Shown: piece by piece, positions 4,015-14,759 of the stretch
Layout of the letters: each line of letters starts with the position of its first letter
Position numbering within the stretch: position 1 is the first letter of the stretch
Source of the DNA: Acidaminococcus massiliensis
GTDB lineage: Bacteria > Bacillota > Negativicutes > Acidaminococcales > Acidaminococcaceae
Assembly: GCF_900095825.1 (NCBI RefSeq)
Contig: NZ_LT608315.1
Coordinates: 1,848,311 to 1,912,310, forward strand
DNA: 64,000 nt
Direction: 5' to 3'
The notes under the pieces: model-generated
Told to the model about the DNA's origin: nothing
What the model saw: only the letters and a program-made list of their open reading frames with translations
Database searches by the model: none
Made by a program: the position numbers and the translations under genes

Positions 4015-4710
4015 ATGGGCGGTTTATTTTCAGAAAGAGCCTGGGCGGTGGTCCTGGCCCACAAAGCGAATTTTATCCAAGGCTTTTCCGTTACAGTGGA
4101 AAGTGCTTTGGGCGGCATCCTGATTGCAGCGGTGCTGGGGGTCCTGTTGGGGCTCATGGGCGTCAGCTCCCGGAAGGTCCCCAAGACCCTGAACCGGATC
4201 TATGTGGAAGCCATCCAGAATACGCCGCTCATCCTGCAGCTGTGCATCCTCTATTATGCCCTTTCCTTCTCGGGCCATAAGATCGGGGTCCTGGCCGCCG
4301 GGATCATTTCCCTGGGGATCTACCATGGAGCCTATATGGCGGAAGTGATCCGGGCCGGAATCGAAGCGGTGCCCAAAGGCCAATTCGAGGCGGCTGATGC
4401 CCAAGGCTTCGATTACACCCAAAAGATGGCCTACATCATCCTGCCCCAGACCATCAAGATCATCCTGCCGCCGACGGTGAATCAGATCGGCAATCTGATC
4501 AAGAATACGGCAGTGCTGTACATCATCGGCGGGGCGGATCTGATTTCTTCCACCTACAATTTCGTGACCGGAGCCACTACCGGCGGCTCCTATGCACCGG
4601 CCTATATCGTCTGTGGTGTCCTGTTCTTCGTGATTTGTTTCCCTCTGTCCACCCTGGCAGCCAGATGGGAAGCCAAGCTGAAGGCCCAGGATGAAATGAT
4701 GAATGCTTGA
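4015..4710 (+). CDS. Amino-acid ABC transporter permease 1
   Basis: Inner-membrane channel subunit of the PAAT importer, about 231 residues with about five hydrophobic segments. The His/Glu/Gln-type TM domain is clear: VEAIQNTPLILQL, and the EAA loop EAADAQGFDYTQKMAYIILPQ that contacts the ATPase. AGGAGG at 4000-4005 supports ATG 4015; the open frame extends 45 bases upstream without a ribosome site. Its 3' end precedes the next permease by 13 bases, whose ribosome site lies across this gene's stop region, suggesting coupled translation. Confidence 0.9.
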   Translation: MGGLFSERAWAVVLAHKANFIQGFSVTVESALGGILIAAVLGVLLGLMGVSSRKVPKTLNRIYVEAIQNTPLILQLCILYYALSFSGHKIGVLAAGIISLGIYHGAYMAEVIRAGIEAVPKGQFEAADAQGFDYTQKMAYIILPQTIKIILPPTVNQIGNLIKNTAVLYIIGGADLISSTYNFVTGATTGGSYAPAYIVCGVLFFVICFPLSTLAARWEAKLKAQDEMMNA

Positions 4711-7145: not shown

Positions 7146-8297
7146 TTGAACAAGAAACAAAAACGGCTGGCCCTGGGCCTTGCCCTGGCCGGCCTGCTGG
7201 GGACCGGTACCGTTTGGGCGTCCCCACTGGAACAGGGAGCCAAACCGGCGGAAACTGTCCTTCTGGACGAAACCGAGGGACCCCTTTCCCATCTCCAGAA
7301 AAAGAAAACGGAGAAAAAAGAAAAAATCCAAAAGGAACGGGAACCGGAAAAGAAAAAGAAAACCCTTGGTTTCCGGGAACGGATCCGGAAGCAGCGGAAA
7401 CAGGAAGAAAAGGCGGCTCGGGAGCAGCCGGAAAAAAAGATCCCCAATGGGAGCCAAAGCCATCCGAAGAAAGTGGCCGCGGCTAATCCCCAAAGAGAAC
7501 TGCGCACGGAAAGCCGGGAAAAGACGGACCTCGGCCGTGATGCACGCCCGGCATCCCAACCGCCCCTGGTGATCCGGAAGGGTTATCTGGCGGTGAGCGG
7601 GGACACCTTGGTGCTGCCCCAGTGGCCGGATCCAGACAAGCTCCTGAAACTGGAGAACCAGGATCGGGTGATTACGGATCCCAGCCTGAAAATCATCATC
7701 AACCGGCTGACCACCACTGCCAAGCTGTGGGAACTGCCGGAAAACTACCAGGAAGTGACCATTGCCGGGCCGGCGGAAGCCAGCCGGGACCAGGCCGTAG
7801 TGCTGCTGCGCCGGTACAATCCCAAACTGCCCATCAAGGCCACGCCGGAAGAAATCGTGGATCTGTATTACCAGGAAGCCGGCCGGGAAGGGCTGCGCTG
7901 GGACATTGTGTTCTGCCAGGCCCTCCTGGAAACCGGGTTTTTCCGGTTCGGGGGCACGGTAGTGCCGGAACAGAACAATTTCTGCGGCCTGGGGACCACC
8001 AGTGCCACCGTCCGGGGAGCGTATTTCCCTACCCCTCGGGATGGGGTGCGGGCCCATGTCCAGCATCTCATGGCCTATACCACGGACCGGCTGCCGGCCA
8101 CTCCGGTAATCGATCCCCGGTATTATCTGGTGTACAAAGGAAAGGTCCAGAACGGATTCTACACCCGCTGGTCCCAGCTCAACGGCAAATGGGCCACCGG
8201 CAGTTATTATGCGGAGAAGATCCTGAATCTCCACGAACAGATGAAGAAGATCATCGCCATTTCCGGCAATGACTGGGATGGAGGCGTTTTGAAATGA
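7146..8297 (+). CDS. Secreted glucosaminidase-domain protein (peptidoglycan hydrolase)
   Basis: About 383 residues. A TTG start at 7146 gives a clean signal peptide (NKKQKR basic end, hydrophobic LALGLALAGLLG, cut after VWA). Residues about 45-135 are a very Lys/Glu/Arg-rich low-complexity linker, consistent with reach through the envelope. The C-terminal 170 residues are a Bax/FlgJ-type N-acetylglucosaminidase domain: FCQALLETGFF contains the catalytic Glu and NNFCGLGTT, RDGVRAHVQHL are conserved. It would cut glycan strands of peptidoglycan. Its stop overlaps the trmL start (ATGATG), so the two are co-translated. Confidence 0.82.
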   Translation: MNKKQKRLALGLALAGLLGTGTVWASPLEQGAKPAETVLLDETEGPLSHLQKKKTEKKEKIQKEREPEKKKKTLGFRERIRKQRKQEEKAAREQPEKKIPNGSQSHPKKVAAANPQRELRTESREKTDLGRDARPASQPPLVIRKGYLAVSGDTLVLPQWPDPDKLLKLENQDRVITDPSLKIIINRLTTTAKLWELPENYQEVTIAGPAEASRDQAVVLLRRYNPKLPIKATPEEIVDLYYQEAGREGLRWDIVFCQALLETGFFRFGGTVVPEQNNFCGLGTTSATVRGAYFPTPRDGVRAHVQHLMAYTTDRLPATPVIDPRYYLVYKGKVQNGFYTRWSQLNGKWATGSYYAEKILNLHEQMKKIIAISGNDWDGGVLK

Positions 8298-8764
8298 TGC
8301 ATGTTGTACTGGTAGAGCCGGAAATCCCCGGAAATACGGGGAACATCGCCCGGCTCTGCGCGGCCACCGGGGCCAGCCTGCACTTGGTGCGGCCTTTGGG
8401 CTTTTCCGTGGATGACAGATACCTGAAGCGGGCGGGCCTGGATTACTGGCATCTGGTGGACATCCACTATTATGATTCGGTGGAGGAGGTGCTGGCCGCC
8501 TATCCGGACAGTCCCCGGTTCCTTTTGACCACCCATGCCCATAAATCCTACAGCCGGGTCCATTACGGGCCCGATTCCCTGCTGATTTTCGGCAAGGAGA
8601 GCGCCGGCCTTCCGGAAAGCTTCCGGCTGGCCCATGCAGAGGAATGTGTGCGGATCCCCATGGTCAGTGAGGCCCGGTCCCTGAATCTGGCCAATTCGGT
8701 GTCCATTGTCCTTTATGAAGCGTTACGGCAGAATGATTTTGATCTCCAGGAGGGAACCATATGA
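8294..8764 (+). CDS. trmL: tRNA (cytidine/uridine-34 2'-O)-methyltransferase
   Basis: SPOUT-fold methyltransferase that 2'-O-methylates the wobble base of tRNA-Leu isoacceptors. The 156-residue length is normal. Family motifs are VLVEPEIPGNTGNIARLCAATG at the start, LLIFGKESAGLPE (motif 2) and IPMVSEARSLNLANSVSIVLYEALRQ (SAM knot). It overlaps the upstream glucosaminidase by four bases and the downstream PTPS gene by four, so it lies inside a tightly coupled run that goes on to folate synthesis. Confidence 0.93.
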   Translation: MMHVVLVEPEIPGNTGNIARLCAATGASLHLVRPLGFSVDDRYLKRAGLDYWHLVDIHYYDSVEEVLAAYPDSPRFLLTTHAHKSYSRVHYGPDSLLIFGKESAGLPESFRLAHAEECVRIPMVSEARSLNLANSVSIVLYEALRQNDFDLQEGTI

Positions 8765-9123
8765 TCTGTATCAAGGAATTCGAGTTCGACGCAGCCCACT
8801 ATCTGCCCAATTATCACGGCAAATGCGAACATCTCCACGGCCATACCTATAAGCTGGTGGTGAAGGTGGAAGGCCATCCTGACGCAGAAGGGATGGTATT
8901 GGATTTCGTCCAGTTCAAACACACAGTGAAAGAGCTGGTGGTGGACCAATTGGACCATCACTGCCTGAACGACATCCTGCCCCAGCCTTCGGCAGAGAAC
9001 ATCGCGGTATGGGTCTGGAACAAACTGAAGGAACCTCTCACCGGGGCCAACTACACCCTGTATGAAGTCCAGGTCTGGGAGACCAAGACAAGCGGGATCG
9101 TGTATCGAGGTGAATCATGCTGA
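8761..9123 (+). CDS. queD: 6-pyruvoyl-tetrahydropterin synthase family protein (QueD / PTPS-III-like)
   Basis: About 120 residues of the tunnelling-fold PTPS family. Zinc ligands are visible as His13 (FDAAHYL) and the HLHGHTY pair, with LDHHCLND later. The active-site segment reads CEHLHGH: it has both the Cys of QueD/PTPS (CxxxHGH) and a Glu three before HGH (ExxHGH), the residue used by PTPS-III enzymes that replace dihydroneopterin aldolase FolB. It lies between trmL and folE2-folP-folK with overlaps, and no folB is present in the run. Known for the family: QueD makes 6-carboxy-tetrahydropterin for queuosine. Inferred: it may supply the folate pathway too. Confidence 0.85.
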   Translation: MICIKEFEFDAAHYLPNYHGKCEHLHGHTYKLVVKVEGHPDAEGMVLDFVQFKHTVKELVVDQLDHHCLNDILPQPSAENIAVWVWNKLKEPLTGANYTLYEVQVWETKTSGIVYRGESC

Positions 9124-9884
9124 AAGATGTCCAGGCGCAGCAGGATCTGCGCCATATCGCACTGAAACATGTGGGGATCAAGGACCTGCGCTGGCCCATC
9201 TGCCTGGCGGACCGGGAAAAAGGCAGCCAGCATACGGTGGCCCATGTGACCCTGGCAGTGGATCTGCCCCAGGAACAGCGGGGGACCCACATGAGCCGCT
9301 TCGTGGAATGCCTGAAGCAGGTGGGACCCATCCGTCCTCATGAATTGGAGGAAGTGCTGGATGGGCTGCGGCAGAAGCTGGAAGCCCGGAAAGCCCTACT
9401 GGAATTCGATTGTCCCTACTTCGTGACCAAGAAGGCCCCGGTCAGCGGCATCGAAAGCTATTTGGACGTGGAGTGCCATTTCCGGGCAGAAAAGGGCGAA
9501 ACCTTTATCCTGGAAGTGGGGGTGGATGTGCCCATCCATACCCTGTGTCCCTGCTCCAAGGAAATCAGCAAGTATGGTGCCCACAACCAGCGGGCCTGGG
9601 CCAAGATCCGCATCCGTACTGCCCAGCCGGTGTGGATCGAAGAACTGGTGGAAATGGCGGAAAAGGGAGCTTCTACGCCCCTGTATTCCCTGCTGAAACG
9701 GCCGGACGAAAAATTCGTCACAGAAATGGCCTATGAAAATCCCCGGTTCGTAGAAGATGCGGTCCGGGAAATCGCCCTCCAGCTCAACGGGGATCCCCGG
9801 ATCGACTGGTACACCGTCACAGTGGAAAGTGAAGAAAGCATCCACAACCACAATGCCTTTGCAACTGTAGAAAAAGAGGTGTGA
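9117..9884 (+). CDS. folE2: GTP cyclohydrolase FolE2
   Basis: Type IB GTP cyclohydrolase (COG1469), converting GTP to dihydroneopterin triphosphate, first step of folate and queuosine routes. About 255 residues. Recognisable pieces are GSQHTVAHVTLAVDLP, RGTHMSRFVE, the metal/active-site cysteine in VPIHTLCPCSKEIS, GAHNQRA and the C-terminal ESIHNHNAFA. It overlaps the upstream PTPS gene by seven bases and ends one base before folP. FolE2 can use metals other than zinc, so it is common in metal-limited anaerobes. Confidence 0.95.
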   Translation: MLKDVQAQQDLRHIALKHVGIKDLRWPICLADREKGSQHTVAHVTLAVDLPQEQRGTHMSRFVECLKQVGPIRPHELEEVLDGLRQKLEARKALLEFDCPYFVTKKAPVSGIESYLDVECHFRAEKGETFILEVGVDVPIHTLCPCSKEISKYGAHNQRAWAKIRIRTAQPVWIEELVEMAEKGASTPLYSLLKRPDEKFVTEMAYENPRFVEDAVREIALQLNGDPRIDWYTVTVESEESIHNHNAFATVEKEV

Positions 9885-9885
9885 T

Positions 9886-11082
9886 ATGTTCCTGACCATT
9901 CCTGCAGAGCGGATCCGTACCGAAATGGAAAAACTGGAAGTCCATCCGGCCGGCATTGGGCTCATGGCCCCCAAGGCGGCAGTCCTGCCGTTGAAGCTCC
10001 TTTCCATCCGGACTCCAGCGGCCAACATCATCAAACAGGAAATGCTGTCCCTGGGAGGGGACTGTGTGAATCCCAAGGGGACCATCAACTGCAGCTTGGA
10101 CCGGGTGGATGTGATCCTCTTGGGGAACCGGCGGCAGTACCAAGCCTTGAAACAGAAACTGAAGACCATGGCCGGCTGGTTCGGCATCCAGGGCGTCCTG
10201 GATGATCTCCAAGCGTTCCTGGAGCCGGGAGAGATGGTGACCTGTTTGGCTGATGGTCGGAAACTGACCTACGAAAAGATGCGGGTCATGGGGATCCTGA
10301 ACGTGACCCCGGATTCCTTCTATGCAGGTTCCCGGATCAGTGGGGAGGAAGCCCTGCTGCAGAAAGCGGAATCCATGCTCCGGGAGGGAGCGGATTTGCT
10401 GGATATCGGCGGGGAATCCACCCGGCCGGGGGCGGATCCGGTGACCCCGGAAGAAGAGAAACGTCGGGTGACAGGTGCCCTGGCGGCTCTACGGAAAGCT
10501 TTCCCAGAGTCCATCCTCAGTGTGGATACCTACCATGCAGATACGGCAGAAGCGGCCCTGGAAGCTGGAGCGGACATCATCAATGACGTGACCGCAGCTA
10601 CTGGGGACGGCCGGATGCTGGAAACAGCGGCCCGGGCCAAGGCCCCTTTGGTGCTGATGCACATGCGGGGGACCCCCAAGACCATGATGACGGAAGACAT
10701 GCGGAGCTACCAGAATGTGGTGGGAGAAGTCTCCCAATACCTGCTGGAGCGGGCGGCAGCCTGTGCAGAAGCCGGGCTGGGGAACGATAAGGTGATCCTG
10801 GATCCGGGGCTGGGCTTTGCCAAAGGCCGGGCAGAAAACCTGGACCTGTGCAGCGGCCTGGCTGAAATGACCGGCCACGGGATCCCCGTGCTCCTGGCCG
10901 GTTCTCGGAAGGCTTTCATCGGTAAGGTACTGGGAGACCTGCCTGCGGAAGAGAGGCTGGAAGGGACCATGGCCCTTTCGGCTGCAGCCCTTTATGCCGG
11001 AGCCCAGATGGTGCGGGTCCATGATGTAAAGGAAAATGTCCGGCTGATCCGGATGCTGGAGGCGATCCGGGCATGTCGATAG
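9886..11082 (+). CDS. folP: Dihydropteroate synthase, long form
   Basis: Condenses p-aminobenzoate with dihydropterin pyrophosphate. The catalytic TIM barrel begins at about residue 128 with GILNVTPDSFYAG, followed by the pterin-site DIGGESTRPGADPV, SVDTYHADTAEAAL, HMRGTPKTM, DPGLGFAKG, LLAGSRKAFIG and a C-terminal VRVHDVKENV. About 125 extra N-terminal residues (398 in all) resemble the long FolP of Clostridia and Negativicutes; that extension has no known motif. The 3' end overlaps folK by ten bases. Confidence 0.95.
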   Translation: MFLTIPAERIRTEMEKLEVHPAGIGLMAPKAAVLPLKLLSIRTPAANIIKQEMLSLGGDCVNPKGTINCSLDRVDVILLGNRRQYQALKQKLKTMAGWFGIQGVLDDLQAFLEPGEMVTCLADGRKLTYEKMRVMGILNVTPDSFYAGSRISGEEALLQKAESMLREGADLLDIGGESTRPGADPVTPEEEKRRVTGALAALRKAFPESILSVDTYHADTAEAALEAGADIINDVTAATGDGRMLETAARAKAPLVLMHMRGTPKTMMTEDMRSYQNVVGEVSQYLLERAAACAEAGLGNDKVILDPGLGFAKGRAENLDLCSGLAEMTGHGIPVLLAGSRKAFIGKVLGDLPAEERLEGTMALSAAALYAGAQMVRVHDVKENVRLIRMLEAIRACR

Positions 11083-11552
11083 CCTATGTGGCCCTGGGGA
11101 GCAACCTGGGGGATAAAGAACAGAATATCCGCCGGGCTCTGGAGCTGATGGAACAGCACGGGGTCCGGGTGCGGAAGGTGTCGCCCCTTCTTACTACGGA
11201 ACCTTATGGGGTGACGGACCAGCCGGAATTCCTCAACGATGCTGCTGAAGTAGAATGGGCTGGGGATGCGGAAAGCCTCCTCCATACCCTCCTTGCCATC
11301 GAACAGGAGATGGGACGGCAGCGGAAACGCCATTGGGGAGAGCGGAACATCGATCTGGATCTTCTCCTTTTCGGGGACCAGATCCTCCGCAGCGCCGATC
11401 TGGTGCTGCCCCATCCGGATATGGCCAACCGGAGCTTTGTCCTGGAGCCGTTGGCCGCCATCGCTGAAACGGTGGTCCATCCAGTATTCCACCGGACCAT
11501 CGGTGAACTGTGGCAGGCACTCCAGGAAAAACAACAGAAAAAAGGGGTCTGA
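11073..11552 (+). CDS. folK: 2-amino-4-hydroxy-6-hydroxymethyldihydropteridine pyrophosphokinase
   Basis: Transfers pyrophosphate from ATP to hydroxymethyl-dihydropterin, making the substrate of FolP. About 159 residues. HPPK signatures are AYVALGSNLGDKEQNI at the N-terminus, YGVTDQPEFLND, the metal-binding segment RHWGERNIDLDLLLFGD, and LPHPDMANRSFVLEPLA. It overlaps folP and is followed three bases later by a membrane-protein gene. Confidence 0.95.
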   Translation: MSIAYVALGSNLGDKEQNIRRALELMEQHGVRVRKVSPLLTTEPYGVTDQPEFLNDAAEVEWAGDAESLLHTLLAIEQEMGRQRKRHWGERNIDLDLLLFGDQILRSADLVLPHPDMANRSFVLEPLAAIAETVVHPVFHRTIGELWQALQEKQQKKGV

Positions 11553-13503: not shown

Positions 13504-13546
13504 AGAAGGGGGGTGTTGCACTTAACGTACAACACCCCCCTTCTTT
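13502..13546. terminator. Bidirectional terminator between convergent genes
   Basis: Perfect 17-bp stem, AAAGAAGGGGGGTGTTG pairing with CAACACCCCCCTTCTTT, loop of 11 bases. It overlaps the stop codons of both the GT2 gene (TAA 13501-13503) and the ttcA-like gene (13545-13547), so both transcripts end in it. Confidence 0.88.
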
Positions 13547-14759
13547 ACTTCTCCCATTCCTCTAAAAAACTGTGTTCCTTCCCATGTTGCTTGAACTTCA
13601 GTACGGTATCCAGGTTGATGTTTTCCATGCTGTGGAAGATGTTGCTGGGAACCTGGGGATTGCCGGCGGCCAGCTGGGCGATCAGTTTCTTCACTTCCAG
13701 CCGCTTGGAATCGGTGGTTCCATCTGTATGGCAGGTGGAACAAGTTTCCGTGAATTTGCAGGCACACTGGATGAAATACAGGTCATTTTCGTCCCGCCAG
13801 CTCTTGATGTCAGCTTCCCGGACGTAATAGAGAGGCCGGATCAGTTCCATTCCCGGGCAGCTGGTGCTCTTCAGTCGGGGCAGCATGGTGCGGACGGCGC
13901 CGGCATAGAGGATGCTCATCAGATTGGTCTCGATTACATCATCGAAATGGTGCCCCAGGGCAATCTTGTTGCAGCCCAGTTCCCGTGCCTTCCGGTAGAG
14001 GTATCCCCGGCGCATCTTGGCGCAGAGATAGCAGGGGGATTCCTCCACGTGGAAGACGGATTCGAAGATGTTGGTGGAAAAGAAGGTCAAGGGCACGTGG
14101 AGCAGTTTGGCGTTCTCTTCGATGATTTTCCGGTTCATTTCATTGTAGCCCGGATCCATGCACAGGAACACCAGGCCGAAGGGAATCTTGTTGTGGCGTT
14201 TCAGATCCTGGAACAGCTTGGCCATGAGCATGGAATCTTTGCCGCCGGAGATGCACACGGCGATTTTGTCTCCCGGCTGGATCATCTCGTAATCGCAGAT
14301 AGCCTGGACGAATTTACTGGAAATCCGCCGCTTGTATTTCCGGCGCAGGGAAGTCTCGATCCGTTTCAGCCGCTGGGAATCGGCAGCGTCTTGGACTGCC
14401 TGCTTTTCCAGCCGGCACTGGAGCCACAGCGCATAGCCTCCCTTGAGGGAGACCGCTGTATAGCCTTGTTCCCGTAGGTTGTCCGCCAAGCCCAGGCTGA
14501 TTTTCCCCCACATGCAGAGGCAGACGATGAGCTTTTCTTCCGGCAGTTCCAGGAGCCCTTCCTGGAGTTCCAGGGGATTTAGGTTCACGGCTCCCGGCAG
14601 GGTCCCTCGCTGGAAGGCCGCTGCATCCCGGATATCCACCACATAGATTTGCTGGGAATCCAGTTCCGCCAGTTCTTCCGGAGAGATCTCTCTTTGCTTT
14701 TCCCAATTATCATGCAAAGCATTCATTCTTTTCCATACTTCCTTTTCTTCAGAATCCAT
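13545..14759 (-). CDS. Rhodanese-TtcA fusion (tRNA 2-thiolation family)
   Basis: About 404 residues. Residues about 25-115 are a rhodanese domain (VVDIRDAAAFQRGTLPGAVNL; active loop LIVCLCMWG with a Cys). Residues 140-390 are a TtcA-type PP-loop ATPase: SGGKDS at about 170, CYLCAKMRRG (CxxC iron-sulfur/thiolation cysteines), LGHHFDD, and CKFTETCSTCHTDG near the C-terminus. Family knowledge: TtcA proteins 2-thiolate C32 of tRNA. The fused rhodanese could hand sulfur directly to the catalytic site (inference). There is an unusually Cys-rich tail. It is transcribed alone toward the GT2 gene and shares its terminator. Confidence 0.85.
   Translation of the reverse strand: MDSEEKEVWKRMNALHDNWEKQREISPEELAELDSQQIYVVDIRDAAAFQRGTLPGAVNLNPLELQEGLLELPEEKLIVCLCMWGKISLGLADNLREQGYTAVSLKGGYALWLQCRLEKQAVQDAADSQRLKRIETSLRRKYKRRISSKFVQAICDYEMIQPGDKIAVCISGGKDSMLMAKLFQDLKRHNKIPFGLVFLCMDPGYNEMNRKIIEENAKLLHVPLTFFSTNIFESVFHVEESPCYLCAKMRRGYLYRKARELGCNKIALGHHFDDVIETNLMSILYAGAVRTMLPRLKSTSCPGMELIRPLYYVREADIKSWRDENDLYFIQCACKFTETCSTCHTDGTTDSKRLEVKKLIAQLAAGNPQVPSNIFHSMENINLDTVLKFKQHGKEHSFLEEWEK

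Follow-up and report, generated by a model that had tools for sequence, protein, structure and literature searches.

In the gut bacterium Acidaminococcus massiliensis, a PTPS gene within the 64,000-nucleotide stretch of DNA analysed here (the window) is, with a probability of roughly 0.87, a folate-committed PTPS-III that bypasses FolB (dihydroneopterin aldolase), with the queuosine precursor made by a separate QueD. This reading draws on gene content, operon structure, an active-site motif, phylogeny, a search that found no FolB and the finding of a second QueD. That the enzyme would replace FolB is well supported by FolB absence and by the conserved operon; we infer its reaction and the roles of its residues from characterised relatives.

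The gene lies in a tightly packed run on the + strand in which neighbouring open reading frames touch or overlap, with names assigned by NCBIfam and Pfam profiles. The first gene, trmL (8294..8764; tRNA 2'-O-methyltransferase, PF00588), scores just under its NCBIfam cut-off (TIGR00185, 187.2 versus 190.6 bits) and overlaps the ptps start by 4 bases. The ptps gene itself (8761..9123) encodes 120 aa, which we designate a PTPS-III-type 6-hydroxymethyl-7,8-dihydropterin (HMDHP) synthase and proposed FolB replacement from PF01242, the tree and the predicted fold. It is followed by folE2 (9117..9884; FolE2-type GTP cyclohydrolase, NF010200, 286.7 bits, cut-off 215; PF02649), folP (9886..11082; dihydropteroate synthase, TIGR01496, 309.9 bits over residues 134-393; PF00809), whose product has an N-terminal extension of ~130 aa, and folK (11073..11552; HMDHP pyrophosphokinase, TIGR01498, PF01288). 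An earlier note on this DNA had placed the PTPS gene between trmL and folE2-folP-folK and had seen no dihydroneopterin aldolase in the run. The gene order was confirmed, and PF02152 (FolB) found no match in the run or anywhere else in the genome, whose assembly (2.67 Mb, 4 contigs) is 99.99% complete. No PF01227-type FolE matched in this genome either, and an Rfam scan of 9 sources returned no riboswitch, its sole match being 5S rRNA.

The ptps product carries the motif CEHLHGH (8824..8844, + strand; C22-E23-H-L-H26-G-H28), which, just as the earlier note had read it, fits both CxxxHGH and ExxHGH; the PTPS-II motif CxxxxxHGH is absent, the spacing being that of CxxxHGH. Pfam places the protein in the PTPS family (PF01242, 131.2 bits, cut-off 22.4). 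It falls under the cut-off of the NCBIfam PTPS subfamily model (TIGR00039, 106.2 against 125.5) and over that of the QueD equivalog (TIGR03367, 102.5 against 89.25 bits), so an annotator would label it QueD. Cys22, Asp65, His66 and Glu107, which we take to be the catalytic positions of QueD, align with E. coli QueD (4ntm), giving the full PTPS-I residue set of CxxxHGH, Asp-His and Glu; His26 and His28 are presumably Zn ligands. The nearest PDB entries to the predicted fold (pLDDT 90.2, from a 20-row alignment) are QueD/PTPS structures; E. coli QueD ranks third and fourth through chains of 4NTM and 4NTK, and matches to Plasmodium PTPS come further down.

To place FolB and FolK in a wider setting, we used a sample of 100 genomes, comprising 63 of the order Acidaminococcales (G000-G062, the window genome included; 41 of them with completeness of 90% or more and contamination of 5% or less) and 37 from elsewhere in the class. 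None of the 63 order genomes has a FolB (PF02152) match, against 34 of the 37 others; as a control, the same search matched in 10 of 14 genomes. Two of the FolB-less genomes outside the order (G070 and G087, family f12) carry the same folate-type PTPS as the order, and in the third (G082, 84% complete) PTPS, FolK, TGT and QueC were likewise not found. FolK occurs in 95 of the 100 genomes and in 59 of the 63 within the order, so the folate pathway as such has not been lost. Neither FolB nor a folate-type PTPS was detected in seven order genomes (G025, G038, G047, G053, G054, G056 and G058), for which our guess is assembly gaps; G038 and G053 are more than 90% complete.

The other 56 order genomes each hold a single folate-type PTPS gene. 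All 56 copies adjoin folE2, and none has a QueC, QueD, QueE or QueF match nearby. Every one of the 59 folate-type copies in the order and family f12 carries CExxHGH, so the motif is not a matter of chance. A profile built from the folate copies was also run against named genomes, and the best 80 of 444 loci were retained; the closest record among those listed, which may exclude the window's own genome, is the PTPS of Acidaminococcus fermentans (98% identical to the window protein). Thirty-two of these 80 lie outside Acidaminococcales and f12, judged by title and contig, in genomes that include Caloramator, Fonticella, Thermobrachium, Anaerosalibacter, Eubacterium minutum and Athalassotoga. All 32 loci have CExxHGH, a count biased upwards because the scan patterns include LHGHTYKL and favour query-like sequences, so that this is no survey of PTPS-III. 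Among these same loci from the best 80 of 444, folE2 is close in 30 of 32, and none of the 32 genomes yielded a FolB match (completeness not given).

We built a tree of 134 sequences: 59 folate-type from the order and f12, 32 folate-type from outside, and 43 QueD-type, the last taken from 13 order genomes, G070 and 29 of the 34 class genomes with FolB (the other five, G073, G076, G080, G090 and G096, were left out). The 91 folate-type sequences, the window gene included, form one group with support 0.934, apart from the QueD types. Glu follows the motif Cys in 91 of 91 folate-type sequences versus 1 of 43 QueD types. That one, in G095, reads CENLHGH, adjoins queE and belongs to a genome with folB, so function cannot be read from the motif alone. 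Cys22, Glu23, His26 and His28 are present in all 91 folate-type sequences. Identity reaches 98% or more in 33 of the 120 columns, among them those of these four residues and of His13, Asp65, His66 and Glu107. Asp10, Thr29, Tyr30 and Thr108 are also invariant across the 91, and most QueD types have other residues there.

PTPS family membership, the ExxHGH Glu, a FolB-less genome and a folate-gene cluster are together what is expected of a PTPS-III. In the proposed route, FolE2 would produce 7,8-dihydroneopterin triphosphate as the substrate of the window PTPS, whose active site would combine Glu23, the neighbouring Cys22 and Zn bound by His13, His26 and His28. The enzyme would cleave the side chain of dihydroneopterin triphosphate to give HMDHP, so that neither the phosphatase nor the FolB step is needed, and FolK and FolP would then carry HMDHP to dihydropteroate. 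The queuosine precursor would come from the separate QueD of the queFCDE operon.

The earlier note had suggested a dual role for this enzyme in queuosine and folate synthesis. Such a PTPS-I/III would supply the folate pathway with HMDHP and the queuosine pathway with 6-carboxytetrahydropterin. Both Cys and Glu are in the motif, and CExxHGH enzymes active in both pathways are on record in an excerpt of PMC5041015. The folate half of the suggestion is well supported, given FolB in 0/63 genomes and folE2 beside 56/56 copies, but the queuosine half is not supported in this genome. The second queD for which the note suggested looking was found in the same genome, in a queF-queC-queD-queE run, adjoining queE and with the motif CTRLHGH (Cys without Glu). 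The QueE of this genome scores 293 bits against its NCBIfam equivalog (cut-off 260), and TGT is present. With a dedicated QueD in place, the window PTPS is not needed for the queuosine precursor, so the pairing of Cys with Glu does not imply a dual role, and such a role is unnecessary in this genome. We therefore regard a dual enzyme here as improbable, at about one chance in ten, although a queuosine side activity may persist.

The distribution of dedicated QueD genes argues the same way. With QueE counted when its profile exceeded 200 bits, 15 of 63 order genomes have QueE, and a dedicated QueD with CxxxHGH accompanies it in 13 of these 15, among them every one of the 12 from the window's own family. 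Of the 32 outside genomes, seven have a second PTPS, and these are the same seven in which a strong QueE was found. As our own criterion for needing dual use, we looked for a sole Cys-type PTPS in a genome with QueC and QueE; the window genome has the CExxHGH motif but not that arrangement. The two exceptions among the 15 are both genomes of family f2 (G059, 95% complete; G062, 75% complete), where QueC and QueE occur but a second Cys-type PTPS was not detected, which makes dual use plausible in that family. As far as seen, this is the only family of the order in which it is needed. The QueE search was checked on the 37 class genomes outside the order, of which 36 match at E 1e-10, each with one QueE match adjoining a PTPS or QueC match; because some of these matches reach no more than 46-60 bits, the search may overlook a divergent QueE.

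A single PTPS with QueC was considered and rejected as a sign of dual use, since 24 of 39 QueC-positive order genomes have no detected QueE and hence no need for QueD. Weak QueE matches at E 1e-10, read by eye in all 12 order genomes that have one without a strong QueE, look like NrdG2-type activases, MoaA or other radical-SAM proteins, with NrdG2 returned by an NCBIfam scan of 2 of the 12; of the weak matches in outside genomes, three were read, by eye. Weak PTPS relatives of ~160-216 aa have neither Cys nor Glu at the motif and, by motif, cannot replace QueD.

That the window PTPS is merely a second QueD, with folate made through some FolB analogue, is very improbable: it passes NCBI's QueD model and has Cys22, Asp65-His66 and Glu107 aligned with QueD residues, but against this stand its linkage to folE2, folP and folK, its anticorrelation with FolB, a folate-type clade separate from QueD and its presence in 22 order genomes (12 of good quality) without detected queC or queE.

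On the preferred reading of a folate-committed PTPS-III, the retained Cys calls for an explanation of its own. QueE was not detected in 41 of the 56 order genomes with a folate copy (26 of good quality), and the folate copy keeps both Cys and Glu in 41 of these 41, which also counts against a dual enzyme. Both codons are in use for each residue (Cys, TGC 27 and TGT 14; Glu, GAG 26 and GAA 15); the codons drift and the residues stay. On a tree of PTPS, FolE2 and FolP, which is made from the folate genes themselves and so is only a species-tree proxy, QueE-less subtrees make up 9.3 of 15.1 substitutions per site, a figure that includes stem branches and so may in part predate QueE loss. Fitch parsimony places 4 QueE changes on this tree, a minimum. 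Tentatively, and with somewhat less than even odds, we suggest that the Cys is required by the folate reaction and is not a QueD leftover, in which case CExxHGH would mark a distinct two-residue FolB-bypass mechanism, not bifunctionality. As one example of such a role, the Cys may act as general base together with Glu; structural or ancestral constraint may instead be the cause of its retention.

PTPS-III is said to have been described by Pribat et al. in 2009 as a FolB-bypass subfamily of COG0720, and that paper and Phillips 2012 are reportedly the founding papers on it. Among excerpts of later work, one states that Glu 'replacing or accompanying' Cys gives the PTPS-III FolB bypass and argues that a single PTPS for both pathways is unlikely in rickettsiae (PMC5615194), and another describes the PTPS motifs and hybrid CExxHGH dual enzymes (PMC5041015, citing its reference 55). 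Excerpts elsewhere report FolB missing from Firmicutes and other phyla (PMC4674097) and PTPS-III replacing FolB, with a table entry 'validated in 1 eukaryote and 8 prokaryotes' (PMC3223725). The window PTPS is thus a Cys-plus-Glu PTPS-III of an ordinary sort, both the FolB bypass and dual enzymes with CExxHGH being already published; a limited literature search found no paper on Acidaminococcus folate biosynthesis with a 6-pyruvoyl enzyme. What the genome adds is a clean case in which bifunctionality read from CExxHGH would mislead, a paralog pair splitting both jobs and the folate copy keeping its Cys even in relatives without detected QueE. It also adds a bacterial order in which none of 63 sampled genomes has a FolB match and in which a standard annotation model takes the folate gene for QueD. 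Why the Cys is retained can be tested, and bears on the mechanism of PTPS-III enzymes.

Compared with known systems, the window PTPS shares with PTPS-III the ExxHGH Glu, a FolB-less genome and a folate-gene operon. Plasmodium-type PTPS-III reportedly lacks the motif Cys, whereas the Cys is always kept in the 91 folate-type sequences here; in the Plasmodium type the Glu is catalytic (P. vivax E37, so named in PDB titles). FolB (PF02152) yields the same pathway product, HMDHP, but belongs to a different Pfam family and, according to the literature, acts on dihydroneopterin, whereas PTPS-III acts on the triphosphate. With E. coli QueD/PTPS-I (PDB 4NTK), the window PTPS has in common the fold, the His and Cys positions, the Asp-His pair and the Glu; it differs from QueD in Glu23, in Thr29-Tyr30, where most QueD types have Asn and Trp, in Asp10 and Thr108, and in its folate operon context. 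The PTPS-I/III hybrids have the same motif class, CExxHGH, but are defined by function in both pathways, whereas in the window genome the CExxHGH enzyme coexists with a dedicated QueD.

If any enzyme of the order is a genuine dual PTPS-I/III, serving both folate and queuosine synthesis, the strongest candidate is the folate-operon PTPS of family f2, which carries the motif CESLHGH. We base this ranking on the complement of queuosine genes in the family's two genomes, G059 (loci L178, 4073-5471, and L121, 3976-4329) and G062 (L179 and L124), in which no separate Cys-type QueD was detected although QueC and QueE are present.

The motif CExxHGH alone does not identify a folate enzyme, because CENLHGH occurs in a QueD-type gene that adjoins queE in G095 (L185, near 4054-4377), a genome of the class that encodes FolB. 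The folate-type PTPS at 8761-9123 of the window scores 102.5 against TIGR03367, the NCBIfam QueD equivalog model, above its cut-off of 89.25, and this acceptance is a likely source of wrong gene names. Elsewhere in the window, FolP carries an N-terminal extension of ~130 amino acids (9886-10284) ahead of its pterin-binding domain. By eye, an ORF at 13545-14759 on the reverse strand resembles a fusion of a rhodanese domain with a TtcA-like tRNA thiolation enzyme.

In the PTPS tree, QueD of the window's genus (L002, 1486-1815) clusters with the QueDs of class family f7 (G065 and G095; support 0.997) and not with the order's other QueDs. This grouping suggests that the queuosine genes were transferred.

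A divergent PTPS relative with the motif GEA[QR]YLHGH was found in 12 genomes (L155, 3902-4513; L149, 3882-4523; L156, L157 and similar loci), and both the Cys and the Glu of CExxHGH are missing in all 12. Among six full sequences read, four have a zinc-ribbon-like C-terminal stretch (CPLCG...CPKCG) and one a rubredoxin-like N-terminal stretch. A PTPS search of the window genome did not find this relative.

Profile searches of the 63 order genomes revealed 24 with QueC in which QueE and a dedicated QueD were undetected. One of these, G009 (a Phascolarctobacterium, judging by its contig), groups queC, queT and queF (QueC locus L159, 4230-5974). This gene content fits salvage of 7-carboxy-7-deazaguanine, a phenotype predicted earlier for gut bacteria as the 'Ac' class in PMC6593275.
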